From NCBI RefSeq assembly GCF_003688405.1, contig NZ_REFC01000011.1, forward strand, positions 124,001-188,000: a stretch of DNA of 64,000 bases, in the 5' to 3' direction. The notes under the pieces were generated by a model. It worked only from the letters and a program-made list of their open reading frames with translations. It did no database searches and had not been told where the DNA came from. This document shows, piece by piece, positions 17,853 through 26,084 of this stretch. The translations under genes and the position numbers were made by a program. The stretch is from Ulvibacter antarcticus. Lineage in GTDB: Bacteria > Bacteroidota > Bacteroidia > Flavobacteriales > Flavobacteriaceae. Numbering within the stretch: the stretch's first letter is position 1; every line of letters begins with the position of its first letter.

Positions 17853-20800
17853 TTACTCTTTAATAAGCTGTTTTGTAATCGTTCCTGCCGAAGATTCTAA
17901 TACTACAAAATATGTCGCACTCGATAAGCCTGACACATCGATAGTATTGTAGCCTCCAATTTCTTCCAGATTTGAATGCATTAACAATCTTCCGGTCGTA
18001 TCGTAAATATCAGCTCCTAAAAGCCATACATTGGTTGGTGAACGTATCTCTATTAAATCTGAAGCTGGATTCGGATACATGCTTATTGCATTTAAATTAG
18101 CATCACTAGTTTCTAATAATTCAGGCTTAAACTGAAGTATAAAACGGTTGTTATACGTTCCTGCTGCGGCCATAAATTGATACACACTTTCGGTTAAGTT
18201 TGTAGTAATCCCCATATAAGTGTCAATTAAATATACCGTTGATGTTTCAAGTGCCGAACCTTCAATATTTGCAATTGAAATAATATATGGCAATCCTTCA
18301 TCCACTTCTATTTGAGTAGAAAATCCTAATGGAATATAACTGTTAGGACTAAAATTTTCTCTCGATTGAATACCAAATTCACCTGTTCCATCTTCTAAAT
18401 GTGAATACAACGACACTATTGTAGCTAGTCTCCTACTATCAAATCCATTGTCTATACCCGCAGTGGCCTCTTCAGAAAAACCTATTAAAGCAGTGTTTTG
18501 CATATTATAGGTTCTATTCTGAACAGATAGCCAAATTCTATTTACCTCTAGATCGTTAAAACGCAATGTATTGTTGTTAGAGAGTCTTCGCATTGAATTG
18601 GTAAACAACGCTGTGCCAGAAGCTGTAGCCTTTATTCCAAATCCTTGACTGGTTGCTATAAAGCCATTGGGTTCAGAATCTGTCCCCGATGGGTCACTGG
18701 CAGCGGCAATTCCTCCCATCAAATTAAACATTGATATGTCCTCCATACTAAAGTTCGCATTGAGGTAGCCGGGAAGTGATGAGTTAGGGGTAGTGAGATG
18801 TTCCCAAAAATAAACCTCGTCGACCATTGCGTTTTGATTGATAAAATCGGGCGCTGAAATAGCTGAAGCATATGGGTTCGCCAAAATGTTTGGGCTATCA
18901 TTCTTAGTTGTGTTAAAAACAACTGGAAATTCAATATCTCCATTATTCAAAGTTCCTTCAGAATACGTCAAATTATATGAAGTGTTCCCTGAAGAAATAT
19001 TGGGTTGTGGCCAAACTAAGAAGCCTTCCGAAGGATTAATAATTCCAGTATATTGCGACCAATTATCACCGTTATCGTCTGCAAAATTTTCAGCATTTGG
19101 AAACGCAGCAGCAACCGTAGCATCCGGAACAAAATTCGCAGTAGTATGATGTAGAACTCTAAAGGCATTTCCAAAGACGTCAGCTCTGGTTTCAGTATCC
19201 ATCGGACTTCCTAGCACCATAAAATCTCTGGGCTTTAAAACAGGGGTGGTAATATGCACATTAATAGCGCCATTGTTAATAGCCAAAGCGGCAACGTCGC
19301 GTTGTACAAGATTTCCTTGATGTTCCACATTTAAGGTTCCGTTGTTATCTATCCCAAATGCAACTTCAACATATCTTTCTGAACTCACGGTGAGTGTGAT
19401 TCCAGAATCTATTGCGAGCGAACAAGACGTAAAACTTCCGTGCGTAGCTGTGTTATAATTAGATCGTATTATTACATTGGTTGAAATATCCGGGTCACCA
19501 TTATCCCAGGCTCCACCAATAAATTGGGTGGTTGTTGCACATGCGGCCAAAGGAGCTTCAATTGCTTTTATTCTGAAATTAATGAGATTGGCATAAATAC
19601 TTCTCTTGGTAACTCTTAAGTAATACGTAGTTCCGGACACGAGGTTAAAGAACAAGCCATTTCCATAGAAACAATCAAGTTCGGCACCACCACAACTATC
19701 AAACATAGCAACTCCATCTGATCCTGATATGTTCGAAATTTGGATATTTCCATTTACGGGCATCACAAACTCGTACCATAAATCTAAATACGTGTTAGAA
19801 GCGCTTCCATCACAACTACCATCAAGACTCTCCGTGGCTGTTCTGGAATCATTTGCAATTTCACTGTAATCAACAGTTCCGACATTAATTTCTGTTGCAT
19901 TCACGCATTCATCGTTGGCCGCGGTTTCAAAAGCTTCCAGATTAAAATTAACAACACCGGCGTAAATAGAACGGCTGGTAACTCGCATTATATAGGTTGT
20001 GCTCGCAGTAAGATTATAAACAAAACCATTACTATAGAAACAACTAATCTCCGTTCCACCACAACTGTCATATAGTGTAATTCCCGTAATTCCTCCTATA
20101 TTGGTTACTCGAAAATTTCCGTTTACAGGCATGGAAAATTCATACCAGGCATCCAAATAATTATTTGATGCAGCACCGTCACAACTACCATCAAGACTCT
20201 CGGTGGCAGCACGCAAATCGACCGAATACGAAGAGACGCCTCCTGTAGTCACCGTAATTGGAGTTCTATCTACACATTCATCATTGGCAAGGGTTTCAAA
20301 AGCTTCAAGATTAAAATTAACAACACCGGCGTAGATAGCACGGTTGGTAACTCGCAATACATAGGTTGTGCTCGCAGTAAGATTATAAACAAAACCATTA
20401 CTATAGAAACAACTAATCTCCGTTCCACCACAACTGTCATATAGTGTAATTCCCGTAATTCCTCCTATATTGGTTACTCGAATATTTCCGTTTACAGGCA
20501 TGGTAAATTCATACCAGGCATCTAAATAATTATTCGATGCAGCACCGTCACAACTACCATCAAGACTCTCGGTGGCAGCACGTAAATCGACCGAATACGA
20601 AGAGACGCCTCCTGTAGTTACCGTAATTGGAGTTCTATCTACACATTCATCATTGGCAAGGGTTTCAAAAGCTTCAAGATTAAAATTAACAACACCGGCG
20701 TAAATAGAACGGTTTGTAACGCGCATTATATAGGTTGTGCTCGCAGTAAGATTATAAACAAAACCATTACTATAGAAACAACTGATCTCCGTTCCACCAC

Positions 20801-21827
20801 AACTATCATATAGTGTAATTCCGGTTATTCCTCCTGTATTGGTTACTCGAATATTTCCGTCTACGGGCATGGTAAATTCATACCAGGCATCTAAATAATT
20901 ATTCGATGCAGCACCATCACAACTACCATCAAGACTCTCGGTGGCAGCCCGCAAATCGACCGAATACGAAGAGACGCCTCCTGTAGTTACCGTAATTGGA
21001 GTTCTATCTACACATTCATCATTGGCAAGGGTTTCAAAAGCTTCCAGATTAAAATTAACAACCCCCGCGTAGATAGCACGGTTGGTAACTCGCATTATAT
21101 AGGTTGTGCTCGCAGTAAGATTATAAACAAAGCCATTACCATAGAAACAACTAATCTCCGTTCCACCACAACTATCATATAGTGTAATTCCCGTAATTCC
21201 TCCTAAATTGGTTACTCGAAAATTTCCGTTTACAGGCATGGTGAATTCATACCAGGCATCTAAATAATTATTTGATGCAGCACCGTCACAACTACCATCA
21301 AGACTCTCGGTGGTAGCACGCAAATCGACTGAATACGAAGAGACGCCTCCTGTAGTTACCGTTATAGGAGTTTTACCAATACATTCATCATTGGCAAGGG
21401 TTTCAAAAGCCTGAAGGTTGAAATTAACGACACCTGCCACTGATTGGTTTCTAGAAACTCGCAGCACATACGCTGTGGATGCAGAAAGGCTATACACAAA
21501 ATCATTTCCATTAAAGCATTCGATTTCGGCTCCTCCACAACTATCATAAAAGGTATAGTTATCCGAACCACTTGTATTCGTTACTCTTACGTTTCCATCC
21601 ACTGGCATGGTAAATTCAAACCAAACATCTACATTATCATTGCTAGGATTTACACAACTCGAGTCGGTACTTTCGGTAGCATTTGTAAGATCGGTAGAAT
21701 AACTGGATACTGAAGCTGTAGTTACAGAGATAGATAAACGGTTTACACATTCATCATTGGCAGGTGTTTGAGCAATACTCATTAATGTACTACAAAAAAG
21801 GCATGCTAAAAGTAAAGTTGTTTTCAT
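17853..21827 (-). CDS. Large T9SS-secreted protein with six NDEC repeats
   Basis: 1324 residues. Signal peptide KTTLLLACLFCSTLMSIAQ; then six tandem beta-rich repeats of 122-123 residues (about 24-760). Each starts NDEC, contains DAWYEF.MPV.GN and the signature LYDSCGG, and ends V.NF.L.AFE; repeats 2-5 are nearly identical and repeats 1 and 6 diverged. A beta-helix-like section with GNLVQRDVAALAINNGAIN and a long unique region follow. The last 85 residues are a type A T9SS sorting domain (ISMYPNPASDLIEI ... TYFVVLESSAGTITKQLIKE). It should be exported by T9SS and attached or released at the surface; adhesion is a reasonable guess only. Confidence 0.9.
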   Translation of the reverse strand: MKTTLLLACLFCSTLMSIAQTPANDECVNRLSISVTTASVSSYSTDLTNATESTDSSCVNPSNDNVDVWFEFTMPVDGNVRVTNTSGSDNYTFYDSCGGAEIECFNGNDFVYSLSASTAYVLRVSRNQSVAGVVNFNLQAFETLANDECIGKTPITVTTGGVSSYSVDLRATTESLDGSCDGAASNNYLDAWYEFTMPVNGNFRVTNLGGITGITLYDSCGGTEISCFYGNGFVYNLTASTTYIMRVTNRAIYAGVVNFNLEAFETLANDECVDRTPITVTTGGVSSYSVDLRAATESLDGSCDGAASNNYLDAWYEFTMPVDGNIRVTNTGGITGITLYDSCGGTEISCFYSNGFVYNLTASTTYIMRVTNRSIYAGVVNFNLEAFETLANDECVDRTPITVTTGGVSSYSVDLRAATESLDGSCDGAASNNYLDAWYEFTMPVNGNIRVTNIGGITGITLYDSCGGTEISCFYSNGFVYNLTASTTYVLRVTNRAIYAGVVNFNLEAFETLANDECVDRTPITVTTGGVSSYSVDLRAATESLDGSCDGAASNNYLDAWYEFSMPVNGNFRVTNIGGITGITLYDSCGGTEISCFYSNGFVYNLTASTTYIMRVTSRSIYAGVVNFNLEAFETAANDECVNATEINVGTVDYSEIANDSRTATESLDGSCDGSASNTYLDLWYEFVMPVNGNIQISNISGSDGVAMFDSCGGAELDCFYGNGLFFNLVSGTTYYLRVTKRSIYANLINFRIKAIEAPLAACATTTQFIGGAWDNGDPDISTNVIIRSNYNTATHGSFTSCSLAIDSGITLTVSSERYVEVAFGIDNNGTLNVEHQGNLVQRDVAALAINNGAINVHITTPVLKPRDFMVLGSPMDTETRADVFGNAFRVLHHTTANFVPDATVAAAFPNAENFADDNGDNWSQYTGIINPSEGFLVWPQPNISSGNTSYNLTYSEGTLNNGDIEFPVVFNTTKNDSPNILANPYASAISAPDFINQNAMVDEVYFWEHLTTPNSSLPGYLNANFSMEDISMFNLMGGIAAASDPSGTDSEPNGFIATSQGFGIKATASGTALFTNSMRRLSNNNTLRFNDLEVNRIWLSVQNRTYNMQNTALIGFSEEATAGIDNGFDSRRLATIVSLYSHLEDGTGEFGIQSRENFSPNSYIPLGFSTQIEVDEGLPYIISIANIEGSALETSTVYLIDTYMGITTNLTESVYQFMAAAGTYNNRFILQFKPELLETSDANLNAISMYPNPASDLIEIRSPTNVWLLGADIYDTTGRLLMHSNLEEIGGYNTIDVSGLSSATYFVVLESSAGTITKQLIKE
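19912..21387 (-). repeat. Four 369-bp near-identical intragenic repeats
   Basis: The TCATTGGCA/TCGTTGGCC junction recurs at 19912, 20281, 20650, 21019 and 21388, exactly 369 bp apart, giving four units that encode repeats 2-5 of the surface protein. Long stretches are identical at DNA level, including synonymous sites, which indicates recent duplication or gene conversion. The first repeat (21388-21753) is 366 bp and diverged. Confidence 0.95.
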
Positions 21828-22012
21828 ATGATAAGGTTTTAAAAATTAAAAAAAACAGCTTAATTAATAAATAGCAATTATGTCTCTTTCAAATTAGTAA
21901 TTGTTAATTTCGAGGAGTTAACTGCTTCAATAATATAAAAAAAAAAGGAATAATGACAGTGATACCCACACGTACAAGAAAGTTATGAGTTTATGTAGGA
22001 TATTTCTTAAAA

Positions 22013-22096
22013 GAAAAAACCCTTTAAATTAAAGTAAAGGGTTTCCAATTTGGTTAGTTAGCAGCAAACAGTTAACTATTTACCGTGAATCTAACT
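22013..22096 (-). ncRNA. Candidate small RNA, unit 1
   Basis: A short transcript is predicted downstream of the TTG-N19-TATCTTTG promoter at 22130-22101. Start near 22096 and end at a 10-bp stem AAACCCTTTA/TAAAGGGTTT (22017-22044, 8-nt loop) followed by T-rich DNA on the minus strand gives about 80-85 nt. The 11-nt box ACTAACCAAAT (22058-22048) just before the hairpin is shared with unit 2. It could alternatively be a leader with an attenuator for the surface-protein gene starting at 21827. The segment 21828-22012 holds nothing else that I can name. Confidence 0.5.
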
Positions 22097-22100
22097 AATT

Positions 22101-22168
22101 CAAAGATATTGTAGAATTCTTTCAACTCAAATACGTATAACTACGTAATACATACGTAGCCCTACGTA
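22101..22168 (-). promoter_or_regulatory. TACGTA array 1 and promoter
   Basis: Four perfect TACGTA palindromes start at 22132, 22142, 22153 and 22163, i.e. 10, 11 and 10 bp apart, all on one DNA face. On the minus strand they sit immediately upstream of a consensus promoter: -33 TTG at 22130-22128, 19-bp spacer, -7 TATCTTTG at 22108-22101. The position fits binding sites of an activator contacting RNA polymerase; the adjacent NarL-type regulator is the obvious candidate (inference). Confidence 0.65.
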
Positions 22169-22198
22169 GACTAGGATTTTATAGAGTTATCACAAAAA

Positions 22199-22312
22199 AC
22201 AAAAGACCCTTCACAGATTAGCGAAGGGTCTTTCATTTGGTTAGTCATCTAATGTCACCACTCCTCAATAGTGAATTAAAATTTGATCAAGAGAATTATT
22301 TATAATTCCTGA
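22199..22312 (-). ncRNA. Candidate small RNA, unit 2
   Basis: Same plan as unit 1: -7 box TATCTTTG at 22324-22317, predicted start near 22312, the shared box ACTAACCAAAT (22245-22235), then an 11-bp stem AAAGACCCTTC/GAAGGGTCTTT (22202-22233, 10-nt loop) followed by a T-rich tail on the minus strand. Predicted length is about 110-115 nt. No -33 TTG is visible. The hairpin alone could serve as the terminator of the response regulator gene, which ends at 22386. Confidence 0.45.
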
Positions 22313-22316
22313 ATAT

Positions 22317-22363
22317 CAAAGATAAGGTTTTAATTAGACCGATTATATACGTAATTGTACGTA
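22317..22363 (-). promoter_or_regulatory. TACGTA array 2 and -7 box
   Basis: Two TACGTA palindromes, at 22348 and 22358 (10 bp apart), lie upstream of TATCTTTG (22324-22317). The spacing from the proximal palindrome to the -7 box is 23 nt, identical to array 1. The absence of a -33 element would make this promoter depend on an activator. Confidence 0.55.
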
Positions 22364-22385
22364 TTTTTTATAATCAAATAAGAAC

Positions 22386-23051
22386 CTATAGCCCCATTAT
22401 AACACTTTTATTATTCAGCGCCCAACTCGAAAGTATATTGGCGCCTCCCTCTATTTCCAATTTAGAGATAATATTACTTCTGTGTTTTTCAATGGTTCGT
22501 ATTGAAACAAAAAGAGATTCAGCTATTTCCTGATTGGTTTCTTGCTTAGCCGCAAGTTTTAATATAGTTACTTCGGAAGGAGTGAGTAATTTCAATTTGC
22601 GTAATTCTTCGGAAGCATTCTTAAGCATATTTGAAGCAAAACTAGAACTAAAGAAAGTCTCGTTATTCAATACTGCAATCATGCATTTTTCAATTTCATG
22701 AAACGAATCCTCTTTAAGTAAATAACCATTAATCTGAAGCGCCTTGGCCTGTGTAATATACTCGGTTTCTTTATGAAAAGATAGTACTATGAACTTGGTA
22801 TTGGCACCCTTTTCTTTGGCCGTTTTAATTACATCAAAACCAGTAAGCAATGGCATATCGATGTCTAAGAAGGCAATAGTAGGTCTCTCTGTTAAAATAA
22901 GTTCCAGTGCCTGCATTCCATTTTCAGCACTACCACAAATATTGTATCCATGATATGTAAATTCATCATATAACCCTTTAAGTAAAATGGGGTGATCATC
23001 TGCAATAACAATGGAGAGGTTCTTTTTGTCTATCATAAAATTCACTTTCAA
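22386..23051 (-). CDS. NarL/FixJ-type response regulator
   Basis: 221 residues. Receiver domain about 12-130 with acidic pair DD (18-19), phosphoacceptor Asp63 in AFLDIDMP, the switch Ser in IVLSFHKE and Lys in LKEDSF. LuxR-type HTH about 155-220 (LTPSEVTILKLAAKQETNQEIAE, then VSIRTIEKHRSNIISKLEI). A second possible start is Met6. Phosphorylation by the HisKA_3 kinase encoded upstream (171-bp gap, same strand) should allow dimerisation and DNA binding. The TACGTA arrays that begin 23 bp past its stop are candidate targets. Confidence 0.93.
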   Translation of the reverse strand: MKVNFMIDKKNLSIVIADDHPILLKGLYDEFTYHGYNICGSAENGMQALELILTERPTIAFLDIDMPLLTGFDVIKTAKEKGANTKFIVLSFHKETEYITQAKALQINGYLLKEDSFHEIEKCMIAVLNNETFFSSSFASNMLKNASEELRKLKLLTPSEVTILKLAAKQETNQEIAESLFVSIRTIEKHRSNIISKLEIEGGANILSSWALNNKSVIMGL

Positions 23052-23222: not shown

Positions 23223-26084
23223 TTAGGTAGGAATTGACAGATAAATGGTCGTTCCTTTATTGGGTTCACTTTGAATGTTCAATTTCGAGTGCAAAATCTT
23301 AGCTCTTTCCATTAATGTCTTCATTCCTAAGCTACTAGTAATTTTCGATTTTTCAGAATACGAAAACCCTTTTCCATTATCCTTAATTACAGTATAAATT
23401 CCATTGCTTTTGGCTTCTATAGTAACTGAAGCCGCCTTGGCTTCCGAATGTTTTACCATATTATTTAATACCTCTTGGACAATGCGATACAAATGGAGCG
23501 AAGCATCTTTGCTCAATAAGTGATCAATGTTTTCTATCTCATTAGTGAAGAATATATTGGTATTCTGATCTACTTCATTGATCATGGAAACAATTGCAGC
23601 AGTCACACCCAAACGTTTCATAGTTGCCGGATGCAGCCCTCTGGAAATACTACGTAGTTCTTCGAGCGTATTTCCGGCAAGTGCTTCCATTTCCAGATTA
23701 CCAGTAGCCTTTGTTTTTTTTGTAAGTAACATTAATTTCTGGCCCACACTGTCATGAAGCTCTCTTGCAACTCTGGTTCGTTCGTTTTCCTGTGCCTGTA
23801 TAAGATCGTGAGCAAATTTTTCCTGTCTAATTCTTGCCGATTTGTTTCGTTCAAAAATGACTAGAATAATTCCTAGAGAGGCTAGTGTTAGAAATGCAAA
23901 CCAGAATCCCCAAGTACGCCAAAAAGGTACCTTAATCACAAAGGAATACACATATGGTTCTTCTTGCCAAACTCCATTACCGTTATCGGCGGTAAACTCA
24001 AAAGTGTAACTTCCAGGTGGAATATAAGAGAATACGGCCTGAGAATCTTCTGAAGGTACGGACCAGCCGTCACCATCTCTCAAGCCCTTCAGACGGTATT
24101 TGTATTTTACATTTTCTGGATAAGTGAAAGTAATAGCCTCCATCATAAAACTTAAGTAGTTCATTTTGTAGGGTAGCACAATTCCTTCCGAAGTACGATA
24201 CAAACTGTCATTCAAAGGTTCAGAAAAAAGCAAAACCTCAGGCATTTCCAAACGTGGTGGGAGTGTATTTTCCGTAAAATTTCTTCGATCAAAAGCAATC
24301 ATACCATCTCTGGATGTACCGAGAAGGATTCCTTCATCAACAATTCTAAGGCCAGACGCGTCAATTCCATTTTTCATAAAGCTCGCGGTCGTTCTATACA
24401 CGGTGGTTTTTATGCTATCTGACTTTCTAAAAAGGTCAATATCGAGGGAAACAAGTTGACCGCGACTTCCCATCCAAAGATTATTTCCATCAACTCTTAG
24501 TATATTGAGGTATTCGAAATTTCCAAATTTTTTTATATCGTGTTTCTTAATTTTATAGGTATTGTCATTCAACTCAATAAGAAAAACATACTTATCATTT
24601 ACCGCAATCACCGAATTATCATCTAAGGCATCCATATCACGAAAATTATTATATTCCTTGGGGTTCAATCCCGGAATAATATCGAATTTTCCATGCCTCA
24701 GCTGCCTAATAAAACGAAATTGGGCTGTGATAAATCGATCTCCTATTTTTTCTAAGGCATATGTTTTTTCATTGCCAATAGTATAAGAAGTATCTTTATT
24801 TATAACTCTTAAATTCCTGCTTGCATTAAGAAAAGTATAATCGTCGATTACTTTTAAGAAACTAAAAACTCCTTTATATTTTATAGACTGCTTTCCATTC
24901 TTCGAGAGTTCGTAAACGCCATCTTCTTCGGCAATTAGTAGATTTCCTTCGGAATTTTCTGTAAAACCTCTCACCAGTTTATTTGAAACAATTGGCTCGC
25001 TCACTACCCCATCTTTAATCGATACCATCCCATTATCAGTTCCCACCATCCATCGATCCTCCCATAAGTAAGCATCATTAGTACTGTTAGCAGGAAGCCC
25101 TAGTGTTTCATCATAAAGTGAATATGCCGTATTTCTGAATCTCACAATTCCAGCACCATAAGTAGCCATCCAGAAATTTCCCTCATTGTCCTTCTCTATA
25201 TTATAAATGTATTTGGTAGGAAGTCCATTTTTTTCATTGATCATCTCATAATCTCCGGATTCCTTCTGAAACACCGCAAATCCGTTTCCTTCAAAGCCCA
25301 AATACAATGTATCGTCTCCTTCCTGATAAATAGAGTAGACCCTATTCAAGTCATATTCGTCCTTATTGAATTTGTATTTCGTGATATCATCGCCTTTAAT
25401 TTTATACAACTCTCCATAAGCACCAACCCATATATTTTTGTCGGAGTCGATTTCTATAGCGTAACATATATTATTAATTCCATGGGAAGCATTATCCATG
25501 TATTCCTCTTTATAGGGATTCAAGGTAATTTTTACAACACCTCTGGAATTCGATGCCAGATAAATTGTGTTGTCATCGTACCATACCGCATCATGGGTGT
25601 TGATAATTAGGTTTTGATCGTTTCCACGAATGACTTCAGTAACACCATCTTTTACAGCGGCAATACCTTTTGAAAAGAAAATATAAACGGTTCCATCTTT
25701 AGCCTCAAGAAAACATCGCACCATTCCAAGCTCTTCTGTCTCTTTTTGGGAAGGAATAAATACCTTACCATTTTCAATGATTGCGTAACCTTTATTAACC
25801 GTACCGACCCAAATTCTGTCATTAGAATCTTCAAAAATTCGAAAGGCTAAATTTGAGGGCAGACCATTTTCTGTAGTATAGTTGGTGAAATTCTTGCCAT
25901 CGAAACTACTAACACCATCTAAAGAGCCAATCCAAAGTAATCCGTTACTCGCTTGAATTATCGAATAAGTTTCATTCCCGGCTAAGCCTTGCTCTATACC
26001 ATATTGTTTAAAATGATACTTTTGCGCACTCGCCATCAATGGCAGTAAATAACAAAGTGTTAAGAGAAGTATTTTTTTTACCAC
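23223..26084 (-). CDS. Propeller-type sensor histidine kinase (Reg_prop, Y_Y_Y, HisKA_3)
   Basis: 953 residues. Signal peptide VKKILLLTLCYLLPLMASA; periplasmic two-component-regulator propeller blades (about 25-610, repeated ASNGLLWIGSLDGVSSF, DSNDRIWVGT, DNEGNFWMATYGAGIVRF); Y_Y_Y domain (about 650-715); one membrane helix (about 727-745); HisKA_3 dimerisation with H777 in RVARELHDSVGQ; HATPase_c with N box EVLNNMVKHSEA and DNGKGF. It is a LuxR-coupled kinase, not a SusR-like hybrid, as it lacks receiver and AraC domains. It senses an unknown envelope ligand and pairs with the regulator downstream. Confidence 0.93.
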   Translation of the reverse strand: MVKKILLLTLCYLLPLMASAQKYHFKQYGIEQGLAGNETYSIIQASNGLLWIGSLDGVSSFDGKNFTNYTTENGLPSNLAFRIFEDSNDRIWVGTVNKGYAIIENGKVFIPSQKETEELGMVRCFLEAKDGTVYIFFSKGIAAVKDGVTEVIRGNDQNLIINTHDAVWYDDNTIYLASNSRGVVKITLNPYKEEYMDNASHGINNICYAIEIDSDKNIWVGAYGELYKIKGDDITKYKFNKDEYDLNRVYSIYQEGDDTLYLGFEGNGFAVFQKESGDYEMINEKNGLPTKYIYNIEKDNEGNFWMATYGAGIVRFRNTAYSLYDETLGLPANSTNDAYLWEDRWMVGTDNGMVSIKDGVVSEPIVSNKLVRGFTENSEGNLLIAEEDGVYELSKNGKQSIKYKGVFSFLKVIDDYTFLNASRNLRVINKDTSYTIGNEKTYALEKIGDRFITAQFRFIRQLRHGKFDIIPGLNPKEYNNFRDMDALDDNSVIAVNDKYVFLIELNDNTYKIKKHDIKKFGNFEYLNILRVDGNNLWMGSRGQLVSLDIDLFRKSDSIKTTVYRTTASFMKNGIDASGLRIVDEGILLGTSRDGMIAFDRRNFTENTLPPRLEMPEVLLFSEPLNDSLYRTSEGIVLPYKMNYLSFMMEAITFTYPENVKYKYRLKGLRDGDGWSVPSEDSQAVFSYIPPGSYTFEFTADNGNGVWQEEPYVYSFVIKVPFWRTWGFWFAFLTLASLGIILVIFERNKSARIRQEKFAHDLIQAQENERTRVARELHDSVGQKLMLLTKKTKATGNLEMEALAGNTLEELRSISRGLHPATMKRLGVTAAIVSMINEVDQNTNIFFTNEIENIDHLLSKDASLHLYRIVQEVLNNMVKHSEAKAASVTIEAKSNGIYTVIKDNGKGFSYSEKSKITSSLGMKTLMERAKILHSKLNIQSEPNKGTTIYLSIPT

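Follow-up and report, generated by a model that had tools for sequence, protein, structure and literature searches.

The window, that is, the whole 64-kb stretch of DNA that was analysed, carries on its minus strand a two-component system followed by two short tandem units. The sensor histidine kinase (23223..26084; Reg_prop, Y_Y_Y, HisKA_3 and HATPase_c) is of the propeller/Y_Y_Y/HisKA_3 type and is the partner of a NarL/LuxR-type response regulator (22386..23051; Response_reg and GerE), whose likely start is the ATG at 23036. Directly behind the stop codon of the regulator gene, and on the same strand, lie unit 2 (22363-22197) and unit 1 (22168-22015). Further on, also on the minus strand, a T9SS-type secreted surface protein is encoded (17853..21827; six GBD_T9SS_assoc stretches and a Por_Secre_tail), which is a possible target of the units. 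This protein has many paralogues that share its C-terminal part, including six in a row in the window genome (G000 C4, about 190000-220000) and several clusters in Ulvibacter litoralis.

In unit 2, the array (22348..22363) consists of two TACGTA, at 22348 and 22358 and 10 bp apart, which were read directly and are predicted to be response-regulator sites, as arrays also stand behind homologous regulators. The -7 box TATCTTTG (22317..22324) lies 23 nt from the proximal TACGTA. The predicted small RNA of about 115 nt (22198..22312), whose 5' end is placed from the box, contains a G-rich-loop hairpin, UCACUAUU-GAGG-AGUGGUGA (TATTGAGGAGT; 22255..22274), and the element ACTAACCAAAT (22235..22245; an exact or near copy occurs in 7/7 of the units aligned below), which precedes an intrinsic terminator (22197..22238). 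In unit 1, the array (22132..22168) holds four TACGTA (22132, 22142, 22153 and 22163; 10, 11 and 10 bp apart), again with TATCTTTG (22101..22108) 23 nt from the proximal site, a predicted RNA of about 85 nt (22013..22096, 5' end likewise placed from the promoter), ACTAACCAAAT (22048..22058) and a terminator (22015..22046). A TTG with a 19-nt spacer is also present in unit 1. The terminator stems are perfect, one of 11 bp (AAAGACCCTTC/GAAGGGTCTTT) and one of 10 bp (AAACCCTTTA/TAAAGGGTTT). The features described in the initial annotation were reproduced by a direct reading of the letters: the TACGTA positions of both arrays, the boxes at 22108-22101 and 22324-22317 exactly 23 nt past the proximal site, the identical 11-mer at 22058-22048 and 22245-22235, the TTG with its spacer and the stems, both of which were also recovered by the terminator scan.

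Several statistics set these units apart from their surroundings. By itself, TACGTA shows no more than a mild excess in the window, with 16 occurrences where 9.7 would be expected, a number reached in 2 of 100 shuffles. All four TACGTA-N4/5-TACGTA pairs of the window, however, fall at these units, and among 200 single-base shuffles of the full 64 kb just 2 contained any such pair. Between 21800 and 22600 the terminator scan returned three terminators against 0.3 expected, two of them being those of the units. Both RNAs fold much better than shuffled sequences (z -5.5 for unit 2 and -5.4 for unit 1). The view that no protein gene lies here also holds, since the ORFs of at least 20 aa in 21990-22380 are two, of 25 and 22 aa, and the 25-aa ORF of unit 2 has no matching start in unit 1. 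The two bodies have ACTAACCAAAT and the terminator frame in common and little else (72% over 50 nt). With a promoter of their own bearing putative regulator sites, an intrinsic terminator and no conserved ORF, the units have the makings of small-RNA genes.

As a mechanism of activation, the phosphorylated NarL-type regulator would bind the phased TACGTA sites, and the proximal site would replace the -33 element and activate the TATCTTTG promoter from a class II position. Class II activation, an established concept, is suggested here because a box 23 nt further on places the proximal site over the -33 region. The search through Flavobacteriaceae for array plus box that the initial annotation had proposed bears on this operator: TACGTA-N4/5-TACGTA-N22-24-TANNTTTG occurs in 47 of 397 genomes, and the reversed pattern, used as a control, scored zero in every row of the tabulated counts over the same 397. 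With a site defined as TACGTA, TACGTG or CACGTA within 130 nt of the stop codon, at least two sites stand behind 67 of 131 regulators of the subfamily, against 5 of 486 other ORFs of at least 200 aa. As 26 of the 131 come from loci fetched by the array or an RNA model, the count was also taken over loci fetched by the regulator protein alone, where it is 52/105 against 4/447. Successive sites are spaced by 10, 11, 20 or 21 bp in 89 of 97 cases, so they lie on one face of the helix, as had been proposed for the window, and in 24 loci comprising both RNA types described below the first array starts 0-135 nt behind the regulator stop codon. No site was counted behind 44 of the 131 regulators; the labels in that count come from regular expressions, by which L189_104 is called type 1 although it is not, and several clade-B rows labelled tac1 or none do have arrays, some overlapping the stop codon. 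The arrays behind 52/105 protein-fetched regulators, together with the array, 23-nt spacing, box, element and terminator kept in relatives, lend support to the earlier proposal that the adjacent NarL-type regulator drives a pair of small RNAs, as far as sequence comparison can carry it.

The same promoter also drives secreted-looking protein genes in three genomes (G000, G003 and G103), and the array-driven protein on contig C46 of G003 belongs to the surface-protein family. In this U. litoralis locus (L232, G003 C46:48783), the 23-nt spacer of the TACGTA promoter contains the ACTAACCA of type-1 RNAs. Large, secreted-looking, array-driven proteins likewise follow several clade-A regulators. 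A second regulator of the subfamily in the window genome is followed by an array promoter that drives a 46-aa membrane-like protein. Behind this regulator (L228) and in L233, L006, L308, L309 and L313 there is a TACGTG/TACGTA or TACGTG/CACGTA pair, and short frames similar to the one in L228 were seen by eye in the other five loci.

The regulator was sought in 60 relatives and in GTDB contigs, from which at least 79 loci were kept. Units of the window's kind, termed type 1, stand behind the regulator in U. litoralis (one; L002 = L089), in the congener G002 (two, as in the window), in Altibacter lentus (L087 = L207), in an Altibacter MAG (L090) and in G326 (L214). In G002 a frameshift close to the end of the contig interrupts the regulator orthologue (L035, G002 C10:734-1242), yet the two RNA units look intact. 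The kinase gene next to the conserved regulator is not the same throughout: that of the window encodes a propeller sensor of 953 aa, while L087, L089, L090 and L214 have ORFs of about 680-690 aa at this place, which suggests that the sensor has been swapped. In an alignment of seven units from five genomes (the window, U. litoralis, G002 and two Altibacter, G326 being excluded), the boxes are TATCTTTG, TATATTGC, TATCTTAG and TATCTTTC, each with the proximal site, which is CACGTA in A. lentus, 23 nt before it. This comparison demonstrates that array and promoter are conserved. ACTAACCA or a near copy is found in 7/7 aligned units, and the hairpin TATTGAGGAGT in 4/7 (window unit 2, the first unit of G002 and both Altibacter) as well as in G326, G115 and G317; the U. 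litoralis unit lacks the GAGG hairpin. The RNA bodies of the aligned units diverge fast between lineages.

G115 and G317 have the type-1 unit in the same setting as the window, flanked by radA and an esterase gene, but with the array reduced to one TACGTA and no kinase-regulator operon beside it. The best regulator matches of these two genomes are found on other contigs, at about 236 bits against 348-398 bits for close orthologues in five other genomes. As the RNA persists there without an adjacent regulator, another activator may serve it. The initial annotation had made its reading depend on conservation in relatives that keep the regulator. This stood in part: array, spacing, box, element and terminator are kept in the relatives named above, but in 16/16 Aequorivita loci, where the regulator is retained at 62-67% identity, the 1500 nt that follow it contain no TACGTA. 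In A. aquimaris (G030), an array-driven short hairpin unit stands in front of ruvB. Such units, with a G-rich stretch and ruvB immediately downstream, were seen in L235 (G030) and L238 (G115), and some 800 nt upstream of ruvB in L066 and L067; the identity of ruvB rests on Pfam RuvB in L235, L238 and L066.

A second, commoner RNA emerged from the wider comparison. R1, a covariance model of the seven type-1 units, which it finds by construction, matches at E <=0.01 in 68 of 397 genomes, with tandem runs of seven in G370 (138-140 bp apart), seven in G387 and four in G193 and in G196, where reading shows five. Among 74 units found by script in the fetched loci, 9 match type-1 words and 53 (50 distinct) are of type 2, an RNA of about 63 nt whose inferred 5' end carries GCUAUUAAU and which has a terminator and, in most cases, a hairpin with GGG in its loop. 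R2, a covariance model built on 34 type-2 units, has hits in 131 of 397 Flavobacteriaceae genomes and 88 of 237 genera, with up to nine matches per genome, nine being the number of candidates scored. Nine stand in a row in G370, where tandem R1/R2 matches are about 138-143 bp apart. The structure of type 2 demonstrably covaries: 92.7% of alignment cells are paired against 77.2% after shuffling, the covariation score is 0.593 against 0.273 for shuffled alignments (0/500) and 0.07-0.15 when slid by 1-3 columns, and both-sided changes occur in 4/7 pairs of the loop hairpin and 10/11 of the terminator. In a quick tree of the 131 regulators, 18 of 26 type-2-labelled rows fall in clade B (36 rows, local support 99), while the window regulator belongs to clade A (84 rows, support 96). 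R2 matches type-1 units weakly. As this cross-match rests mainly on promoter and terminator, the two types appear to follow the same plan, with bodies not proven homologous. Rfam gave no match in the window at the gathering score and, in 12 loci with such units, three at E <=0.5, all under the gathering score; within this scope of the window and 12 loci, the RNA types match no catalogued family. One further observation is a Flavo-1 RNA match below threshold (36 bits, gathering score 42) in L044 (1325-1403, minus), close behind an array-driven hairpin unit. At two type-2 loci (L058, 357-806 plus; L211, 2968-3423 plus), the gene before the regulator encodes a small aspartyl-protease-like protein (Asp_protease_2) and no kinase.

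At many clade-B loci the regulator gene has a leader of its own, and 60 nt of such leaders were compared with type 2 (34 clade-B leaders, some lacking a type-2 array, from species that are not independent). The reverse complement of the type-2 5' end, ATTAATAGC, is present in 7/34 against 0.03 expected from shuffling, at least 8 nt of it in 10/34 against 0.18, and TCCCT, the loop complement, within 40 nt of the start codon in 13/34 against 0.73. Sense, reversed and complement versions of these words show no enrichment in the 34 leaders, and in clade A the counts are 0/82 for ATTAATAGC, 3/82 for at least 8 nt of it and 4/82 for TCCCT. The sites stand at varying distances from the start codon in otherwise dissimilar leaders, and were seen solely where the regulator has its own leader; regulators of the window lineage lack the 8- or 9-mer. 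Duplexes between RNA and leader beat dinucleotide-shuffled leaders at p <=0.05 in 8 of 31 loci, with a combined p of 4e-5 over related species that are not independent, and 23 of the 31 tests are not significant singly. Complementarity above chance to mRNA leaders is in this way demonstrated for type 2 on the regulator leaders. Both RNA elements, the 5' end GCUAUUAAU and the G-rich loop, would pair with the leader of the regulator's own mRNA, and since both are complementary to it, the most likely action of type-2 RNAs is repression of their activator. In clade B, feedback on the regulator is thus likely; because the leader words are enriched in antisense and the duplex energies beat shuffles, negative feedback on the activator is the best-supported putative function of type 2 and the regulator's own mRNA its best-supported candidate target.

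A genome-wide search for the bipartite site gave 74 matches in 30 carriers (reversed control 14; 29 are R2-positive and G015 is not) and 50 in 30 non-carriers (control 28; R2-negative genomes that may hold divergent units), that is, 1.5 times as many in carriers. Given the control and non-carrier counts, most matches are background and the site was rejected as a genome-wide target finder; most of the 30 matches that were fetched fall within ORFs or at a long distance from any start. Secreted-looking proteins of 141 and 145 aa, for which no Pfam family was found, have the site at their start codon in G093 and G196, respectively, which is no more than a lead picked after the fact, and in G306 the matched string also contains an ATG at that place.

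For the window pair, a type divergent from type 2 on what would be the same plan, the target is a separate matter. The window regulator leader lacks ATTAATAGC, and the regulator is outside the best 8 of 49 window genes by duplex energy for either RNA. The initial annotation had named the surface protein at 17853-21827 as possibly controlled, and repression through base pairing at the 5' end of its leader is conceivable, if on the doubtful side. Unit 1 would pair with AAGCAGUUAACU and unit 2 with ACUCCUCGA, two stretches that overlap by ACU and adjoin at the inferred 5' end of the leader, which beats shuffles at p 0.03 and 0.04 for the two units; the U. litoralis leader, though diverged elsewhere, retains ACTCCTC, and window unit 2 reaches p 0.002 against it. 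The window leader, however, ranks just 3rd and 9th among the 49 genes, the U. litoralis RNA scores p 0.34 against its own surface-protein leader, 8 bases of the unit 1 match are palindromic, and ACTCCTC is found in 0/20 paralogue upstream regions, delimited from start codons that a script had guessed. Across the fetched loci, ACTCCTC occurs upstream of secreted genes in 0/594, and C-rich or seed-complement words were discarded as candidates, being at most weakly enriched (CCCC 14/221 against 6.2 shuffled).

Pairing has further been weighed against other modes of action. The RNAs could act by titration, their G-rich hairpin loops sequestering an RNA-binding protein in the way that RsmX/Y/Z sequester CsrA, with tandem copies raising the dose of the sponge. 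GGG- or GGA-bearing loops do recur in otherwise different RNAs behind arrays, and the tandem copies and the NarL-type regulator would suit such a role, but the conserved 5' ends and complementary leaders favour pairing and some tandem members lack a G loop, which makes titration improbable. A CsrA sponge proper was rejected, as CsrA (PF02599) exceeds the cut-off in 0/40 relatives, with one match under it, against 3/14 control genomes. Slightly less credible still is a repressor that binds GCTATTAAT/ATTAATAGC as a DNA operator, facing one way where the RNA begins and the other way within the regulator leader, with the RNAs as possible by-products. The two words are one double-stranded sequence, located at the inferred start of the RNA gene and near the regulator start codon. 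Against this, orientation is fixed (at least 8 nt antisense in 10/34 leaders, sense in 0/34), the loop AGGGA is likewise met by TCCCT, and the hairpins covary. Least probable of all is that no functional small RNA exists, the hairpins serving simply as terminators and the arrays acting on something other: an array-driven protein gene does follow many related regulators and RNA bodies diverge quickly between lineages, but the internal hairpin has been conserved, covariation extends to the terminators, and every unit of a tandem comes with a promoter and a terminator of its own.

The preferred reading is base pairing by small RNAs. At the window, two tandem small-RNA genes are quite probably activated by the adjacent two-component system, as part of a wider Flavobacteriaceae design in which the regulator gene would be followed by one to about nine such units, each giving a terminated RNA, here of about 85-115 nt, that would act by pairing; transcription, binding and repression are all inferred from sequence. 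For the full module we lean, at little better than even confidence, towards a widespread and uncatalogued arrangement: behind a two-component regulator gene would stand a tandem array of small RNAs, variable in copy number, which the regulator activates through helically phased TACGTA; the RNAs would repress the regulator and other mRNAs through two pairing elements (GCUAUUAAU and the G-rich loop), and the same operator would also switch secreted surface proteins. What the comparison adds to the initial annotation is that the predicted design is widespread and often multi-copy, and that protein genes too are under its promoter.

Small-RNA regulation in Bacteroidota outside Bacteroides is, in our impression, little mapped. 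The analysis offers a concrete operator (phased TACGTA, 23 nt from a -7 box), a regulator subfamily and a candidate feedback target, for an RNA class (type 2) found in about a third of the 397 sampled genomes of the family. One to about nine copies in a row would make RNA dosage an evolvable trait, and the operator allows regulon prediction for secreted proteins of marine bacteria. We found no publication linking TACGTA to response regulators of Flavobacterium or of the NarL type, and among the papers listed under small, multicopy or tandem RNAs and two-component feedback in Bacteroidota or Flavobacteriaceae no title or abstract opening describes this module, although subscription journals, supplements and further papers may differ.

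Among known systems, the RNAs RsmX, RsmY and RsmZ sequester CsrA under the control of GacA, a NarL-type regulator. The module resembles this system in its regulator, which is of NarL/LuxR type and is linked to the arrays by position, in the upstream palindromic element and in several paralogous short RNAs with GGA-type loops. It differs in the location of the units directly behind the regulator gene, the phased multi-site arrays, the complementarity to the regulator mRNA and the lack of a CsrA over the cut-off in the 40 relatives, so that CsrA/RsmA in the host, which membership of Gac/Rsm would entail, was not found. The Qrr RNAs of Vibrio under LuxO, and OmrA/OmrB under OmpR, are multi-copy or paired RNAs that feed back on the mRNA of their regulator. 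By description, the RNAs treated here are likewise multi-copy or paired, and putatively activated by a response regulator and directed at its mRNA; regulator class, promoter type and host phylum differ, and here the copies stand in tandem behind the regulator. Within the same bacterial family, the Rfp RNAs of Flavobacterium psychrophilum include Rfp18, a conserved small RNA that affects secreted proteases and is predicted to pair via its third stem-loop (PMC9723704, main text). Rfp18 would differ from the present RNAs in that way of pairing, and the main text of that report contains neither TACGTA nor 'response regulator'. FopS/GibS of Bacteroides belong to the same phylum. Sections of the report on them describe RNAs present in several copies, about 65-70 nt long, that have a conserved 5' seed as well as a terminator; the FopS copies are intergenic, antisense or 3'-derived, and their regulator is called unknown (PMC11697453). 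Membership of this group would call for its R1 seed and for binding of RbpB. Compared by description with those sections, the present RNAs share the phylum, the multicopy nature, a similar length, the conserved 5' end and the terminator (PMC11697453).
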